A DNA stretch of 34,984 bases from a virus. Position numbers and translations under genes: made by a program. The notes under the pieces were generated by a model that did not search any database, was not told where the DNA came from, and worked only from the letters and a program-made list of their open reading frames with translations. The stretch covers positions 1-34,984 of the IMG/VR virus record IMGVR_UViG_3300044695_006119. One strand, given 5' to 3'. This document shows, piece by piece, positions 770 to 31,749 of this stretch (positions are counted from its first letter, which is position 1; the number at the start of each line of letters is the position of its first letter).

Positions 770-1181
770 CTTGGATGGAACTTTTTCCAACCCAGAACAT
801 AGACGCCACTTCGTTACCCAATTCCCCAAGGACCATAAACGCTTTTACGAGGCTCTTTGCCAAGATGGAGCGAATGAATGGTGTGTTTGGCTTTTGGGGC
901 GTTTCAGAAAAGATGAAATCCTGTTCGTAAGTGGACGGCCTGAACAATACCGCGATAAAACGGTGGTATGGTTGAGGGATTATGGTTACGAACAATGCCC
1001 ACTTTTTATGCGAAAAGAGGGTGATTATCGGATGGACTCAGTAATCAAGGTAGAAATCTATAGAGAGGACATTGAGCCTTTTTATAATATCATGTTTTGT
1101 TTGGATGACCGGACTCAAGTCGTAAAGGCTTGGCGTGCTCTTGGTTTGATTTGTCTGCAATGCGACGATGGAGATTTTTAG
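735..1181 (+). CDS. Polynucleotide 3'-phosphatase (HAD superfamily, T4 Pnk C-domain-like)
   Basis: A 148-residue protein with the HAD motifs in order: motif I DLDGT (residues 13-17, nucleophile Asp and acid/base Asp), motif II FVSGRPE (about 64-70, Ser/Gly/Arg as in the T4 PseT phosphatase domain), the K of SVIKVEI (about 102-108), and motif III CLDDR (about 122-126, Mg2+-binding Asp pair). The family removes 3'-phosphate ends from DNA or RNA so that they can be ligated or extended. The N-terminal kinase domain of T4 Pnk is absent, and the start is fixed by a strong AGGAGG just before ATG 735, so this is a stand-alone phosphatase. No ligase or kinase is seen in the window. Likely roles are end repair during recombination or answering host nucleases; this is inferred. 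Confidence 0.8.
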   Translation: MTPLKPTKIIVDLDGTFSNPEHRRHFVTQFPKDHKRFYEALCQDGANEWCVWLLGRFRKDEILFVSGRPEQYRDKTVVWLRDYGYEQCPLFMRKEGDYRMDSVIKVEIYREDIEPFYNIMFCLDDRTQVVKAWRALGLICLQCDDGDF

Positions 1182-1305
1182 ATGAGTAAAGACGACAGTA
1201 AAAAACCGCGAGGCCGTGATATTTGACCGAGGGCAACCAGAAACATGAGCAAACCACCAACTAAAGCTATTATGATTATTCAAATTTGGAAAAAGGAGGA
1301 AAGCC

Positions 1306-1746
1306 ATGGGAATGACGGTTCAATTTATACTTGATAGGGACATGATGCAATGCGAATCGTGGGGATTGCAAAAGATATGCGATGATTTAAATGCAGAAAT
1401 AGAAAAGTTAACGGATTTAAGATGGGAATTTTATCAAAAACGAAGAGAATCAGAAGAAGAAATGGAAGACCCAAAGGATGGTGATGGTTTAGACGGATCA
1501 CTTTTGGTTAAGTTTCACCCAACCCCATTAGGGGTTATTATGGGGAAAATGTCTAAAACAGAAATACCAGAAACTGTAAGGTTTTTAAGAAAAAAATTTG
1601 ATACAGTTTTGTGGAAATGCCATGATTTTTATGATGATACATGGTTTGATGGAAATAAGGCTTTATGCAGGGATGAAAAAAAATACGGACCTATAATAGT
1701 TAGGCATTGGTCTGAATTGGAAGAGGAGGAAAGCCATGACGCATAA
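1306..1746 (+). CDS. Hypothetical protein, 146 aa
   Basis: Unrecognised acidic protein. Residues 20-55 look helical and possibly coiled-coil (Glu/Lys/Arg-rich), and the tail ends in a run of Glu. AAAGGAGGAAAGCC precedes the ATG. A nearly identical AGGAGGAAAGCC sequence lies inside its 3' end and serves as the ribosome binding site of the next gene, which overlaps it by 11 nt. Confidence 0.65.
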   Translation: MGMTVQFILDRDMMQCESWGLQKICDDLNAEIEKLTDLRWEFYQKRRESEEEMEDPKDGDGLDGSLLVKFHPTPLGVIMGKMSKTEIPETVRFLRKKFDTVLWKCHDFYDDTWFDGNKALCRDEKKYGPIIVRHWSELEEEESHDA

Positions 1747-7635: not shown

Positions 7636-8067
7636 ATGGATGATGATAAAAAGCCGACGAAAAGCAAAAAGAAGAAGCTAACACCTAAGCAAGAGAAATT
7701 TGCGAGAAACGTTGCAAGCGGAATGAAACAAGTAGACGCTTATAGAGACGCATACGATACACAAACCACAAATAAAAATTCCCAAAGAGTGAGAGCATAC
7801 GTAGAAAGCACTAAGAGTAACGTCGCTGATATGATAGCTGACCTCAAGGCAAGAGCCGAGCAAGGCGTTGTTTGGACCCGTGAGATGGCCATGACGGCAC
7901 TGTTGGACACATACAAGCTAGCTAGGGACCAAAACCATGCACAAGGTGCCACAGGGGCCTTAAAAGAGCTTAACGCGATGTATGGCTATAATGAAGCAAC
8001 AAAAATCAATATTGGTGGTCAGAAAGGCAACCCTATTATCATAGCACCGGATGAAAAGGACCTCTAA
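7636..8067 (+). CDS. terS: Terminase small subunit
   Basis: A 143-aa protein with a Lys-rich leader, then LTPKQEKFARNVASGMKQVD, the start of the Terminase_2 type DNA-binding helix-turn-helix, a long coiled region (residues 50-85) and a C-terminal part ending in the TerL-binding tail. It recognises the packaging site on concatemeric DNA and feeds the large subunit. ATG 7636 has GGGAGG 6 nt upstream; an in-frame ATG at 7603 lies within the promoter region. It overlaps terL as TAATG, the usual coupled arrangement. Confidence 0.85.
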   Translation: MDDDKKPTKSKKKKLTPKQEKFARNVASGMKQVDAYRDAYDTQTTNKNSQRVRAYVESTKSNVADMIADLKARAEQGVVWTREMAMTALLDTYKLARDQNHAQGATGALKELNAMYGYNEATKINIGGQKGNPIIIAPDEKDL

Positions 8068-10298
8068 TGCTTATCAAGTGGACCGATAAGCAAAAGGAAG
8101 CCTTAAAACTACTCAGTGGCGATGCAAAGCATGTCATGCTCTATGGTGGCTCACGTTCTGGTAAGACGTATCTCTTGACCCATGTGGTGTTTATCCGTGC
8201 TTTAAAGTATGACAAAACGCGTCACGCTATTATCAGACAGACACAGACAGCGGCTAGGCGTTCGTTATGGCTTGGCACCATTCAGGATGTGATCGCCAGT
8301 AGGTATCCTGAAGCCGATTTAAAGATCAACAAGACAGAGATGACAGTGACCTTTCCCAACGGGTCGATGATTGAGATTATGGGCGTGGATGAAGGCGCAA
8401 AGGAAAAGATGTTGGGGAATGAATACACCACCATATACTTTAATGAGTGCAGCGAGATGATGTTTAGCACTGTTTCCTTTATGTATTCACGGCTGAGCCA
8501 AAAGAGTGCAGCAAAAAACAAGTTTTTTTATGATCAGAATCCCCCGCATATCTCGCATTGGTCCTTTCCTATGTTTGTGCAAGGCATAAACTACTACAGC
8601 AAGGAAAAGCACGCTAACCCTGCCGATTATGTATCGCTTGTGCTAAACCCTGCCGATAACGTGCAGAACATATCCAGCGATTATATCCAGCAGCTTATGG
8701 AGAACATGAATGAACAGCAAAAACAACGGTTTATCTTTGGTCAGTTTGCAAGTGATCCAGACGAAAAGACAGTCTTTACCAACTGGACTATCAAGGCGTT
8801 TGATACTGATCCTGATGCTGTCTTTCAGTTTGGGTGTGACTTTGGCTTTAGTGTAGATCCCACGGTCCTGATACGCTGTTACCTCAAAGAGCGAACGTTA
8901 TACATAGACCAAGAGCTTGTTCTTAAGCAGTGTGAGACGATAGATATGCCTAAGATGTTCTTAAGCATACCAGAGAGCCAGAGGTATATCATCGTGGCGG
9001 ATTCATCACGTCCTGAGACGATATCGCATCTAAAGCGGCATGGATTCCCTAGGGTGATGCCAAGCCTCAAGGGCAAGAATAGCGTGATTGAGGGTATAGA
9101 GTTGCTGAAAGGATACAGGATTGTTGTGCATCCACGATGCGAAGAGACGATAAACGAATTGTCTTTCTATAGCTATGCCACGGATAAAGACAGTGGGAAG
9201 GTGTTGCCAGAGCTTGAGAAGAATCAGGCAGATCATTGTTTGATTGCCGGAACAATGGTGACAACAAAGGATGGTTTAAAACCCATTGAAACTATAACCA
9301 CGAATGATTTGGTGTTGACTCGTGAAGGATATAAGCCCGTGTTGTTTTCAGGGCGTACGGGTGTAAATCGTCGCGTGTTAAAGGTTGAGACAAGCGGTGG
9401 ATCGTTTACTTGCACGCCAAACCATGAAGTGTTTACGGCGAATAGGGGCTTTGTCCGTGCCGATGCTTTGTGTTATGATGATGACTTGCTTATTGATAGT
9501 GAGACATTGGAATGCCTGAAACGCTTGAATACAACGGGAAGACTTATAGACGATATCCAAACAGTACGCGCAGGAGTGACAGGGTTTACTTCAAGAGCGG
9601 GACAGTTTGGTTACACCGTCAAGTATGGATTGATGCAAATGGTGCAATCCCTGATGGGCATCACATCCACCATAGGGATGAAAACCCAGCCAACAATAGC
9701 TTGTGCAACCTTGAGTGCTTATCACCAGCCCAACACTTTAGCGAAGCCCACATTTGGGATGATGAAAGGCGTGCAAAGCAAAAAGAGCATTTACATAAAA
9801 TCAGGCATCTTACAAAGTCTTGGCACTCAAGTCCTGAAGGCATTGCAAAGCACCGTGAGATTGGTGCCATGGCTTACAAAAAGTATGTTCCTAAAGACAA
9901 GCACTGTGAGCATTGCCAAGTTGTGTTTACGCCAAGAAAAATCGGGGATGCAGACAAGTTTTGCTCTAACAGGTGCAAATCAGGGTGGAGACGGGACTCA
10001 GGGATTGATAATGTCCAGCGAAAATGCGAATGCTGCAATACGGCCTTTGTGTGCAACAAATACAGCAAACAAAAATTTTGTTCGTCAGCGTGTTCTAACC
10101 GTTACCGATGCGGGAATAGCGTCTGAGGTTTTTGATTTAACCATTCAAGATGCACATGAGTTTTTTGCAAACGGTGTTCTTGTTCACAATTGCATTGATG
10201 CGCTACGGTATGCCTGTGAGGGCTTTAAAAACCTAAGACGCGAAGAGCCTAGGCCTCTAAGGCTTGTGGATACGTTTGGCAACTGGAGCGCAGGTTAA
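8067..10298 (+). CDS. terL: Terminase large subunit interrupted by an intein (743 aa precursor, 425 aa mature)
   Basis: DNA-packaging motor. The ATPase domain carries Walker A GGSRSGKT (residues 27-34) and Walker B TTIYFNE (about 121-127; E127 catalytic). The RNase H-like nuclease domain carries the first Asp in FGCDFG (D258) and the second in VADSSRPE (D312). The third Asp motif is split: residues 389-390 (DH) are followed by a 318-residue intein and the chain resumes with CIDALRYA, whose Asp is D711 of the precursor and D393 after splicing. Mature length 425 is normal for the family. Without splicing the nuclease site would be broken, so phage viability should depend on intein activity. It is preceded by terS; a minus-strand gene overlaps its last three bases. 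Confidence 0.93.
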   Translation: MLIKWTDKQKEALKLLSGDAKHVMLYGGSRSGKTYLLTHVVFIRALKYDKTRHAIIRQTQTAARRSLWLGTIQDVIASRYPEADLKINKTEMTVTFPNGSMIEIMGVDEGAKEKMLGNEYTTIYFNECSEMMFSTVSFMYSRLSQKSAAKNKFFYDQNPPHISHWSFPMFVQGINYYSKEKHANPADYVSLVLNPADNVQNISSDYIQQLMENMNEQQKQRFIFGQFASDPDEKTVFTNWTIKAFDTDPDAVFQFGCDFGFSVDPTVLIRCYLKERTLYIDQELVLKQCETIDMPKMFLSIPESQRYIIVADSSRPETISHLKRHGFPRVMPSLKGKNSVIEGIELLKGYRIVVHPRCEETINELSFYSYATDKDSGKVLPELEKNQADHCLIAGTMVTTKDGLKPIETITTNDLVLTREGYKPVLFSGRTGVNRRVLKVETSGGSFTCTPNHEVFTANRGFVRADALCYDDDLLIDSETLECLKRLNTTGRLIDDIQTVRAGVTGFTSRAGQFGYTVKYGLMQMVQSLMGITSTIGMKTQPTIACATLSAYHQPNTLAKPTFGMMKGVQSKKSIYIKSGILQSLGTQVLKALQSTVRLVPWLTKSMFLKTSTVSIAKLCLRQEKSGMQTSFALTGANQGGDGTQGLIMSSENANAAIRPLCATNTANKNFVRQRVLTVTDAGIASEVFDLTIQDAHEFFANGVLVHNCIDALRYACEGFKNLRREEPRPLRLVDTFGNWSAG
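9237..10190 (+). mobile_element. Intein in terL with an out-of-frame nested homing endonuclease gene
   Basis: 318 residues from Cys1 to Asn318, followed by extein Cys. Block A is CLIAGTMVTTKDG. Block B holds the TPNH motif (T60, H63). Block F is EVFDLTIQDAHEFFANG (297-313). Block G is VLVHN with penultimate His317 and terminal Asn318. All residues needed for standard protein splicing are present. The splicing parts are residues 1 to about 91 and 297-318; the roughly 205 residues between them show no endonuclease motif in this frame and are rich in Ser/Thr/Leu/Gln. That segment coincides with the HNH gene in another frame (9512-10126). Boundaries follow from rejoining DH to CIDALRYA, a typical terminase sequence. 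Confidence 0.93.
9512..10126 (+). CDS. HNH homing endonuclease nested out of frame inside the terL intein
   Basis: A 204-aa protein in the -1 (+2) frame relative to terL. The N-terminal NGKTYRRYP... VYF / LHRQVWI segment and the HNH core GHHIHHRDENPANNSLCNLE...QH (residues 49-75; H53, H54, D56, N62, N66, H75) match the HNH_3-type homing nucleases of phages. Two zinc ribbons follow: C132/C135 with C151/C155, and C172/C175 with C190/C194. It has its own ATG with GTGAG 8 nt upstream, and TGA at 9500-9502 closes the frame just before, so internal initiation is the only evident route to expression. The stop is at the first codon of splicing block F. It would cut intein-less terL alleles and drive homing. 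Confidence in the domain is high; expression is inferred. Confidence 0.88.
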   Translation: MPETLEYNGKTYRRYPNSTRRSDRVYFKSGTVWLHRQVWIDANGAIPDGHHIHHRDENPANNSLCNLECLSPAQHFSEAHIWDDERRAKQKEHLHKIRHLTKSWHSSPEGIAKHREIGAMAYKKYVPKDKHCEHCQVVFTPRKIGDADKFCSNRCKSGWRRDSGIDNVQRKCECCNTAFVCNKYSKQKFCSSACSNRYRCGNSV

Positions 10299-10687
10299 AT
10301 CATGTCTAACAATAAGAGTAAGACCAGCAATTCGTCTTCTTCCTTGATGACAAAGTTTAGGTAAATCTTTAAGAGTATCTCTAGGGCTTTTGTTTCTTTT
10401 AAGAGTGATGGCCTGTCTATCTTGGCAATGTCTTGGGGTTTTTTGATTGAGACGTTAAACAGGGCGGAAAGCTGTTTTAGGTCTTGTTTGATCTTCTTTT
10501 TAGGGATTTGCTTTGTGATGATTTGTGTGACAATGGTGTCGATGTGGACTTTGTGTTTCTTTTGGTGTGCAGGAATGTATACATAGCCACCGCCGCCTAA
10601 CAGTTCCACGTCTTGCGTTGTGGTGGTGTTGGGTGTCCAGTAGTTGCCTGCCCAGTATGTTTTAGCCCAGTATCGGTTAGACCACAT
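10295..10687 (-). CDS. Minus-strand phage protein with N-terminal YW repeats, 130 aa
   Basis: The N-terminus repeats a RYW/TYW/NYW pattern (MWSNRYWAKTYWAGNYWTPN), a signature of small phage proteins often found near head genes. A Gly run (about residues 31-34), a Lys-rich helical part and an extremely hydrophobic Leu-rich end (LLVLLLLLDMI) follow. It is transcribed against the late operon and fills the whole gap between terL and the portal gene, overlapping the terL stop by 3 nt. I see no good ribosome binding site, so expression is uncertain. The conserved-looking N-terminus argues that it is real. The function is unknown. Confidence 0.6.
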   Translation of the reverse strand: MWSNRYWAKTYWAGNYWTPNTTTTQDVELLGGGGYVYIPAHQKKHKVHIDTIVTQIITKQIPKKKIKQDLKQLSALFNVSIKKPQDIAKIDRPSLLKETKALEILLKIYLNFVIKEEDELLVLLLLLDMI

Positions 10688-10693
10688 TTTTGT

Positions 10694-10721
10694 TTGACTT
10701 TAAGGTTTTTTTAACTATAGC
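10694..10721 (+). promoter_or_regulatory. Candidate promoter before the portal gene
   Basis: TTGACT, 16-nt spacer, TATAGC, 27 nt before the portal start. It would restart late transcription after the reversed gene. Confidence 0.5.
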
Positions 10722-10748
10722 CTATAAACAAAATAAAGGAAAAACTTT

Positions 10749-12902
10749 GTGAAAGACGAAGATTTAGTCCAAAAAATTAAGGATAAGTTTGACAGAGATC
10801 AAGGCTATTGGTCATCAATATACGATGAAGCCAAGCGTGATATGATGTTTTTGTCTGGTGAACCGGATGCGCAGTGGGTTGGTCTTAAGAAGCCCATAGG
10901 CACAGCACTTACCATTGACAGGCTTTCGTCTGTGGTGAATCAGATTGCGAATGACATACGCATGAACACGCCGGCGATTAAGGTGATTCCAGGGGACCGT
11001 GAATCTAGCGAGGATGTGGCGGAAATACTGTCTGGTTTGATTAAGAACATAGAATATGAATCCATGGCGGATTCTGTGTATGATTCTGCTGCTTTGTCGT
11101 CTGTGCGCTGTGGCATTGGCTTTATGCGTATTGAGACGGAATACGAAGATGATACGTCTTTTAATCAAAAGATATGCATAAAGAGGGTGGCTAACCCGCT
11201 GAGTGTTTATATTGATTGCACGTCTGTTGAGGCAGATGGGTCGGATATGAAGCATGCGACAATCTTGCAAGAGATATTGGTTTCAGATTTTAAAGAGGAT
11301 TATCCTGAGTTTGATCCTTCATCATTTAAAGAAGGCGGCATAGAGCGGCAATATAAAGACGAAGATAGTATTTTTATTGCCGAGCATTTTTATATTGAGA
11401 ATAAAAAGGAAGAGCTTGTATCGCCGGATGATGAAACGATGCGCCGTCCTGTTGTTAGGAAGGTGATTCACAGGGTATTGGTGTCTGGCAAGGATATTTT
11501 AGAAAAGACAACGTTTCCAGGGGATTATATTCCTGTTGTTCCTGTATTTGGGGAAGAGTATTGGGTTGAGGGCAAGCGGTATTTGGCAAGTGCCATTCGT
11601 CGGGCAAAGGACCCGCAAAGGATGTATAACTACTGGCGTTCTGTTGAAACGTCATTGCTGATGAAACAGCAAGTTGCCCCTACTATGGTGGCTGAGGGTC
11701 AAATTTCTGGCTTTGAAGACGAATGGAAAAACCCAAATTCTTTAGTTGTGCAATACAAGCTTTTGGATGCGACTGGAAATGCTTATCCTTCCCCGCAAAG
11801 ATTGCCACCGCCTCAGATACCTTCTGGCATTGTGAATGCTGCCTTAACGATGGCAGAGGACATTAAGGCCACAACGGGCATCTTTGATGCGTCTTTGGGG
11901 AATAAATCTAACGAGACCAGCGGTGTTGCGATTCAGAGACGGCAGCAAGAAGGTGACACGGCCACGTTTCACTTTGCTGATAACCTAACGAAAGCAATAT
12001 CTTACGCAGGAAGGGTGATTGTATCTGCTATTCCTAAAATTTACGACACGGCCCGTATTTTGAACGTTATGGACCTTGAGGGGAACGTTAAGAAGGTTGG
12101 GGTTAATGGTGAGATAACGGAAGACCAGCAAGAGGATGTTGACCTGACAAGGGGACGCTACACTGTGAAGGTGACAACGGGTCCATCCTTTACGACAAAG
12201 CGGCAAGAGTCGGCGGATTTCTTTGGAAAGATTGCGCAATCTCAGCCTGAGATGATGCAGATTGTTGGTGATTTGGTGTTTAAGTACATGGATTTACCAG
12301 GTGCGGAGGCTTTATCAGAAAGAATTAAGAAAACCATGGATCCGAGGCTTTTGGACGAAGAAAACGATCCCATGGCGGCGCAATATCAGCAGCAGATGGA
12401 AGCCATGCAGCAGCAGCTACAGGCGGCAGCGCAAGAAATGCAGGCTATGCAGCAGCAGCTTGATAACAAACAAGCTGACACGCAGATAAAGGCTCAGAGC
12501 GAACAAAACAAGGTTGAAATTGAAAGCGCAAAGTTGACGTTGCAGCAGTCTGAAATGGAAACAGATGCTCAGTTAAAACAGCAAGAACTTGAGATAAAGT
12601 TTAAAGAACTTGAGATTAAAGAACAGGAATTGATGATCCGTTTGGAAGAATTGCGGATGCAGAAAGAATTAAAAGAACTTGAGATTATGACGAATAACTT
12701 TAATGCCCAAAACCAAGAAGATGAGTCTGGTGAGATGGAAAAAGAGAATGAAAATGATAATGGATCAAGGGATTTAGAGCTTGCTCTTTTGCAGGGTAAC
12801 AGTGCCGCAATTCAGGGGATAACCAACCTGATGCAGAGCAAAAAGAACATCACGATCAACAGAGATGCCAACGGATTGATGGAATCCCTGACCGTTATGT
12901 AA
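10749..12902 (+). CDS. Portal protein (P22 gp1-like)
   Basis: 717 aa, close to the 725 aa of P22 gp1. The N-terminal third has the P22_portal pattern: the DRDQGYWSSIYDEAKRDMMF helix, then DRLSSVVNQIANDIRMNTP and the wing/stem regions. Residues 530-680 form a long Gln/Glu/Met/Lys-rich coiled coil, a barrel-like extension. The dodecameric ring at the capsid vertex is the channel for packaging and ejection. It starts at GTG, with AAAGGA 8 nt upstream. A basic/Asn-rich tail follows the coiled coil. Confidence 0.9.
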   Translation: MKDEDLVQKIKDKFDRDQGYWSSIYDEAKRDMMFLSGEPDAQWVGLKKPIGTALTIDRLSSVVNQIANDIRMNTPAIKVIPGDRESSEDVAEILSGLIKNIEYESMADSVYDSAALSSVRCGIGFMRIETEYEDDTSFNQKICIKRVANPLSVYIDCTSVEADGSDMKHATILQEILVSDFKEDYPEFDPSSFKEGGIERQYKDEDSIFIAEHFYIENKKEELVSPDDETMRRPVVRKVIHRVLVSGKDILEKTTFPGDYIPVVPVFGEEYWVEGKRYLASAIRRAKDPQRMYNYWRSVETSLLMKQQVAPTMVAEGQISGFEDEWKNPNSLVVQYKLLDATGNAYPSPQRLPPPQIPSGIVNAALTMAEDIKATTGIFDASLGNKSNETSGVAIQRRQQEGDTATFHFADNLTKAISYAGRVIVSAIPKIYDTARILNVMDLEGNVKKVGVNGEITEDQQEDVDLTRGRYTVKVTTGPSFTTKRQESADFFGKIAQSQPEMMQIVGDLVFKYMDLPGAEALSERIKKTMDPRLLDEENDPMAAQYQQQMEAMQQQLQAAAQEMQAMQQQLDNKQADTQIKAQSEQNKVEIESAKLTLQQSEMETDAQLKQQELEIKFKELEIKEQELMIRLEELRMQKELKELEIMTNNFNAQNQEDESGEMEKENENDNGSRDLELALLQGNSAAIQGITNLMQSKKNITINRDANGLMESLTVM

Positions 12903-31673: not shown

Positions 31674-31749
31674 TGGTAGTCCATCAGGGAGTCGAACCCC
31701 ATCCTCATGCGTTATGAGCGCAGTGTGCTAACCCGTACACTAATGGACC
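31674..31749 (-). tRNA. tRNA with anticodon CAT (elongator Met or Ile2)
   Basis: 76 nt with all arms: acceptor GGTCCAT / ATGGACT (first pair G-U), D stem GTGT / GCAC with GG in the loop, anticodon stem with CTCATAA loop (anticodon CAT), 5-nt variable loop, T stem TGGGG / CCCTG with TTCGACT loop, A73 and an encoded CCA. The 1-72 pair and anticodon stem are not of the initiator type. If Ile2, host TilS would modify the C34. One mismatch (C27-U43). It lies between two minus-strand genes. Confidence 0.92.

Follow-up and report, generated by a model that had tools for sequence, protein, structure and literature searches.

The large terminase (terL) gene of the window, by which we mean the whole 34,984-base virus sequence analyzed (IMG/VR record IMGVR_UViG_3300044695_006119), is interrupted by an intein whose linker also encodes a complete HNH nuclease in another reading frame. 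Together, these very probably form a mobile homing intein with its homing endonuclease gene entangled in a different reading frame. The two-frame arrangement is widespread and conserved, recurring in dozens of phages unrelated to one another, and is no artefact.

The terL intein and the HNH gene in its linker

The features of the locus are given below by window position and strand.

8067..10298, +: terL (large terminase) ORF with intein; a continuous 743-aa ORF matching Pfam Terminase_3, Terminase_3C and Terminase_6N
8067-9236 and 10191-10295, +: N- and C-exteins, predicted to give a 425-aa TerL once spliced
9237..10190, +: intein of 318 aa, Cys1 to Asn318, with a +1 Cys; Pfam Intein_splicing E 9e-12; Hint fold
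9237..9512, +: N-terminal splicing half (IntN), blocks A and B, residues 1-92; pLDDT >90
9494..9511, +: possible weak Shine-Dalgarno (SD) region (GTGAG...) for the HNH start; anti-SD energy -3.5
9500..9502, +: TGA stop in the HNH frame, 9 bases upstream of the HNH ATG (from the sequence)
9512..10126, +: HNH_3 endonuclease gene, 204 aa, ATG start, phase 2 relative to terL, with two CxxC...C zinc ribbons; Pfam HNH_3 E 2e-12
9513..10076, +: linker in the terL frame, disordered, with no amino-acid conservation and stop-free (pLDDT, dN/dS, 0 stops)
10077..10190, +: C-terminal splicing half (IntC), blocks F and G, residues 281-318; pLDDT ~95 or more; TIGR01443

By its domain matches, the terL product comprises the ATPase and nuclease domains of a terminase. 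The intein occupies residues 391-708 of the ORF and interrupts terL between ...NQADH and CIDALRYA. Its block B reads T60xxH63 and its C-terminus ...FFANGVLVHN, followed by the +1 C; with Cys1, block B TxxH, a C-terminal Asn and a +1 Cys, it belongs to the class 1 Hint inteins, and C1, T60, H63 and N318 are invariant across 52 relatives. IntN and IntC lie on one ORF (8067-10298), which is not the split-intein layout. In AlphaFold runs with 52-sequence alignments for both the intein and the HNH protein, the two splicing halves are modelled at the confidence listed above and linker residues 100-275 at a pLDDT of about 46. The intein model is closest to the gp41-1 intein (TM 0.87 of the target, rmsd 1.7 Å), a Hint fold, and the HNH model is fully folded, with an average pLDDT of 95.8. 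An earlier note on this DNA had described a 318-aa terL intein with complete splicing blocks and no endonuclease in its own frame; its coordinates are correct, its boundaries of the intein parts hold (the N part is modelled confidently to about residue 92 and the C part from about 281), and in the AlphaFold model block F falls within the region it gave. Its complete 204-codon HNH gene with two zinc ribbons at 9512-10126, in a frame other than that of terL, is confirmed by ORF and Pfam analysis.

The phase of the HNH gene is defined as HNH start minus host frame, modulo 3, which here equals 2. Residues H53, H54, D56, N61, N62, N66 and H75 and most of the zinc cysteines are invariant in HNH relatives, and the Pfam HNH_3 family profile is matched by the window protein and by 52 of 52 relatives. 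A PDB sequence search with the window HNH gave no match; the nearest solved homing HNH by Foldseek is I-HmuI, a weak match (E 0.58). Elsewhere in the window, an antisense ORF of 130 aa (10295-10687, minus strand, start MWSNRYWAKTYWAGNYWTPN) lies directly after terL, and a tRNA-Met gene (anticodon cat) is found at 31674-31749 (minus strand).

We propose that one mRNA would be read twice, in the terL frame and in the internal HNH frame. Translation of terL would yield TerL with the intein, in which a long disordered loop takes the place usually occupied by the endonuclease, and the Hint domain would splice out to leave the 425-aa TerL. Other ribosomes would initiate at the internal ATG within the intein coding sequence and produce a free 204-aa HNH nuclease. 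In co-infecting phages whose terL has no intein, this enzyme would cut the gene close to the conserved (D)H.DALRY codons; with the intein-bearing copy as template for repair, intein and nuclease would be inserted together. Comparative evidence gives this mechanism good support.

Conservation of the layout and its neighboring states

When IMG/VR was searched with the HNH protein, six relatives were returned (35-43% identity), each of them nested within a terL intein in the phase seen in the window, and a profile search raised the relatives to 82 HNH loci, or 83 with the window. Phase-2 nesting inside a longer stop-free host frame is found at 65 of the 83, and 64 of these 65 have intein blocks in the host frame, on one side only where some of the 64 meet a contig end. 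The sole exception is L030 (1567-3706), where an HNH ORF without intein blocks lies between two copies of the terL 3' end (TYYRNIWR and TYYKNIWR); it seems to be a free-standing insertion carrying a replacement gene end. Since the nested class among the 83 loci is partly defined by the absence of stops, a set of 70 loci picked by the N-splicing half alone, with HNH not used, served as an independent check; a small number of loci are common to both sets. Fifty-two of these inteins carry HNH, every one in phase 2: 49 with an open host frame, and 3 near-identical ones with stops. The remainder are 15 mini-inteins, 2 cut by contig ends and 1 (L162) with a different nuclease. The search of terL inteins for the same layout that the earlier note had suggested thus yields many cases (65/83 and 52/70), and in-frame HNH homologues, which it had named as counter-evidence, number 0 among the 83 HNH loci and 0 among the 70 independently chosen inteins. 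In 52 host proteins Pfam finds Intein_splicing in 48 and an in-frame HNH in none, with HNH_3 in all 52 nested ORFs.

The layout is present in isolated or complete phages (Acinetobacter phage Highwayman, Tetrasphaera phage TJE1 and Rhodobacteraceae phage LS06-2018-MD07), whose records carry terL as the sole annotation at the nested locus. In GTDB genomes, the 52-sequence profile found 13 loci, 7 of them (one truncated) with an open phase-2 host frame; a first scan of genome contigs, before this profile, had found 0 loci. A single-sequence viral search with the whole intein returned no matches because the linker is not conserved, and the HNH and IntN profiles succeeded. One of these loci, L166 (CP070724.1, 2574-4769), has the nested layout in a terL-like gene, possibly of a provirus, in a chromosome-level MAG of an archaeon (Thermoplasmatales).

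Relatives occur in other states. Free-standing HNH genes lie directly after intein-less terL (L021-L025, L057, L064 and others, and Exiguobacterium phage EauM-23) or, in Acinetobacter BP10, ahead of terS. In split forms, terL-IntN, HNH and IntC-terL are separate ORFs; these forms are found only in L072, L082 and L090 (Vibrio phage 1.238); in L090 (Vibrio phage 1.238.B, 149-3877) the HNH between the halves is unannotated, and the same terL ORF has an upstream LAGLIDADG-like intein. At L102 (4001-5000), and also at L103 and L104, the phase-2 HNH is intact and IntC is still in frame, with many host-frame stops; this type is a broken or nascent split intein. In the mini-intein L106 (4241-4390), the short linker retains the ACSRSCG codons of the last HNH zinc knuckle, within a 106-base stretch that is 88% identical to L014/L099 and preserves the host frame; nuclease loss by deletion therefore also occurs. 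The entry of an HNH gene into a mini-intein out of frame, as put forward in the earlier note, is plausible in that free-standing relatives adjoin intein-less terL, but at least one mini-intein (L106) derives from the nested form by deletion, so the direction has to be read case by case. Furthermore, L162 holds a DNA polymerase A intein with a nested phase-1 HNH of another family (phrog_374, E 7e-55) at 970-1668 (+), inside an ORF at 3-1940, apparently an independent second case of the layout at a single locus.

Mobility, translation and selection

No DNA relative of the window terL was found in the phage collection searched, and the exact empty site with co-conversion is therefore drawn from one Acinetobacter phage pair, other than the window. 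The terL genes of Highwayman and Acba_21 are 99.4% identical over the 5' 1214 bp, and after codon 405 Highwayman has exactly 981 extra bases, which are the intein and its phase-2 HNH. To the right of the insertion there are seven mismatches, all within 13 bases, and then none over ~590 bases; among their effects, Leu is replaced with the Cys needed at +1. Copying across a nearby break would produce such a flank pattern, and the mismatches mark a short co-conversion tract. Judged from sequence, the shared insertion sites and the recent empty site show that the element is mobile, whichever enzyme makes the cut. The distances correlate (Mantel r 0.62 for HNH vs terL and 0.48 for HNH vs IntN), which indicates that HNH, terL and IntN have for the most part moved together over long periods.

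The Highwayman terL is matched by about 40 close relatives among Acinetobacter phages, but the HNH by only 2 Acinetobacter phages; mini-inteins survive without HNH, one intein (L106) has had its HNH deleted, and a DNA polymerase gene shows this layout with an HNH of a different family (L162). These observations argue against the HNH being a DNA-packaging cofactor of the terminase, similar to HK97 gp74, that resides in terL for co-expression and not for homing. We regard such a role as unlikely, although HNH is nearly always linked to terL, its free-standing relatives adjoin terL or terS, and HNH genes next to a terminase have a known part in packaging (Kala et al., 2014, as cited in PMC12613952).

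A homing nuclease made from its own start is consistent with the translation signals. The anti-SD energy at HNH starts has a mean of -4.5 kcal/mol, vs -2.2 kcal/mol in control windows (p = 3e-8) and -1.4 at internal ATGs (p = 6e-11), and it reaches -6 at 42% of HNH starts vs 6.5% of control windows and 3% of internal ATGs. At 28% of HNH starts the SD is weaker than -3, so about a quarter of loci are without a convincing one, and the SD of the window HNH is itself weak (-3.5). For the family as a whole, the enrichment supports independent initiation of HNH, and nuclease production would presumably be uncoupled from splicing. Followed upstream from its ATG, the HNH frame meets a stop after a median of 5 codons (within 10 codons in 40/54 loci), and a slippery heptamer precedes the ATG in only 2/54 loci; internal initiation is therefore preferred over a programmed -1 frameshift from IntN, which would give an intein-nuclease fusion instead of a free protein. 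Phase 2 does equal a -1 shift, and some phage genes use such shifts, but with HNH starts being ATGs with SD enrichment we consider this route very unlikely, and internal initiation of HNH the probable one.

Selection acts on the two frames in different ways. Synonymous HNH codons were shuffled, with protein and codon usage preserved, at 59 non-redundant loci: 0 linker-frame stops are observed vs 140.6 expected, and hence the host frame is actively kept open. The joint probability of an open linker frame over the 59 loci is ~10^-95, as a product of P values with loci treated as independent; for the window by itself, a linker frame open by chance, given the HNH protein and its codons, has P = 0.05. 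In the same test, ten free-standing HNH relatives have 65 stops vs 63.5 expected, and the nested genes read in phase 1 have 1014, matching chance expectation. Approximately 2 stops per gene need to be removed in phase 2 vs ~17 in phase 1. Phase 2, the cheap phase, would be used because the fewest stop codons need removal; this is enough to explain the uniform phase, and common descent may contribute.

For eleven related pairs, simple Nei-Gojobori counts, which include no overlap model and are indicative, give a dN/dS of 0.12-0.28 for the HNH frame of the overlap where estimable, 0.74-1.75 (about 1) when this DNA is read in the host frame, and 0.03-0.27 for the upstream terL and IntN. Thus the linker is unconstrained except for stops, whereas the HNH protein is constrained, and the purifying selection on the HNH frame that the earlier note had named as a test is found. 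The lack of amino-acid constraint on the host-frame linker and the weak SD in the window would fit an HNH that is a passing parasite, untranslated in the linker in most phages, with the open linker merely tolerated; however, such strong selection on HNH codons (dN/dS well below 1), the invariant catalytic and zinc residues and HNH ORFs that remain intact at 34-54% identity to the window HNH make this scarcely credible. That the HNH is truly in frame and was displaced by two indels, through assembly or otherwise, can be practically dismissed: no support for it was found, the same phase recurs in 65 loci, isolates and MAGs alike, and the linker frame is open against the shuffle expectation.

Comparison with known homing systems

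In textbooks, an intein is a single polypeptide that contains a splicing domain, to which mobile forms add a nuclease in the same frame. In the loci described here, from many phages and some MAGs of prokaryotes (prophages, or phage contigs that were binned), the two selfish functions are encoded by shared DNA in separate frames; with the nuclease in another frame, annotation misses it and the inteins resemble mini-inteins with a nonsense linker. We think it likely that these loci represent a large undescribed class of homing inteins, with the nuclease entangled out of frame with the linker. Such a class would have more than one origin (phase-2 HNH_3 in terL; a phase-1 HNH of another family in DNA polymerase) and would be an evolutionarily stable state intermediate between two others, the free-standing endonuclease next to its target and the split intein whose halves flank the nuclease. 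The class would then provide a possible missing step linking free-standing endonucleases, inteins and split inteins, and each frame of this long, naturally occurring overlap can be tested clearly. The small phage inteins, with their long disordered loops, are possible engineering scaffolds, and the Highwayman/Acba_21 pair makes homing directly testable.

Fractured genes, as reportedly described by Dassa et al. in 2009, are split inteins whose two halves flank a free-standing endonuclease. The window likewise has a free nuclease gene between IntN and IntC, but its intein is unbroken; the split version, with an HNH of this family, occurs in L072, L082 and Vibrio phage 1.238. Group I introns can carry endonuclease ORFs, such as that of I-HmuI. 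There too an endonuclease gene of HNH type stands apart from the host frame, whereas in the window no RNA intron was found (a group I intron was rejected, with no Rfam match at E <= 1 across 8000-10800) and removal would be by protein splicing.

Inteins with in-frame endonucleases (LAGLIDADG TerL inteins, PI-SceI type) share with the two-frame inteins a Hint domain, a nuclease in the B-F loop, insertion in a conserved host motif and empty sites, but the two-frame nuclease would be made as a protein of its own from another frame. All intein endonuclease domains are found at one conserved loop site (PMC6801210), and the hidden HNH gene occupies the same loop region in a different frame. Mycobacteriophage TerL inteins have an in-frame LAGLIDADG and all lie in the ATPase domain (PMC5050341), whereas the window insertion is in the C-terminal DALRY region of TerL.

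In the ShiLan domain and Pacc40 gp60, an out-of-frame HNH lies in methylase insertions, explicitly without a splicing domain, and in the authors' proposal the methylase retains the insertion (Arsenault, Gosselin and Gogarten, 2025; PMC11855218); another out-of-frame HNH insertion of the ShiLan kind is reported in PMC12613952. ShiLan resembles the window in its zinc-finger HNH out of frame, its insertion open in the host frame, its occurrence in phages and its mobile distribution. The window differs in that a complete Hint domain brackets the HNH and the host is terL, and HNH starts in its relatives are SD-enriched ATGs, unlike the GTG without a ribosome binding site in ShiLan. Inspected by eye only, the other intein of Pacc40 appears to be of the ordinary kind, its in-frame content being LAGLIDADG-like, and shows no convincing nuclease in another frame. 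The novelty suspected in the earlier note would thus stand for the splicing intein, as no description of an out-of-frame endonuclease in one was found in the searchable literature (most subscription papers and bioRxiv lie outside it), but not for the out-of-frame HNH as such, which ShiLan has without splicing domains.

In STALEMATE, a synthetic entangled meganuclease with a +2 frame overlap, mutating one gene tends to break the other (PMC12455656). Entanglement may protect the nuclease described here, in that frameshifts and some nonsense mutations that kill HNH would also break an essential host gene; STALEMATE is engineered, whereas the nuclease overlap in the window is natural.
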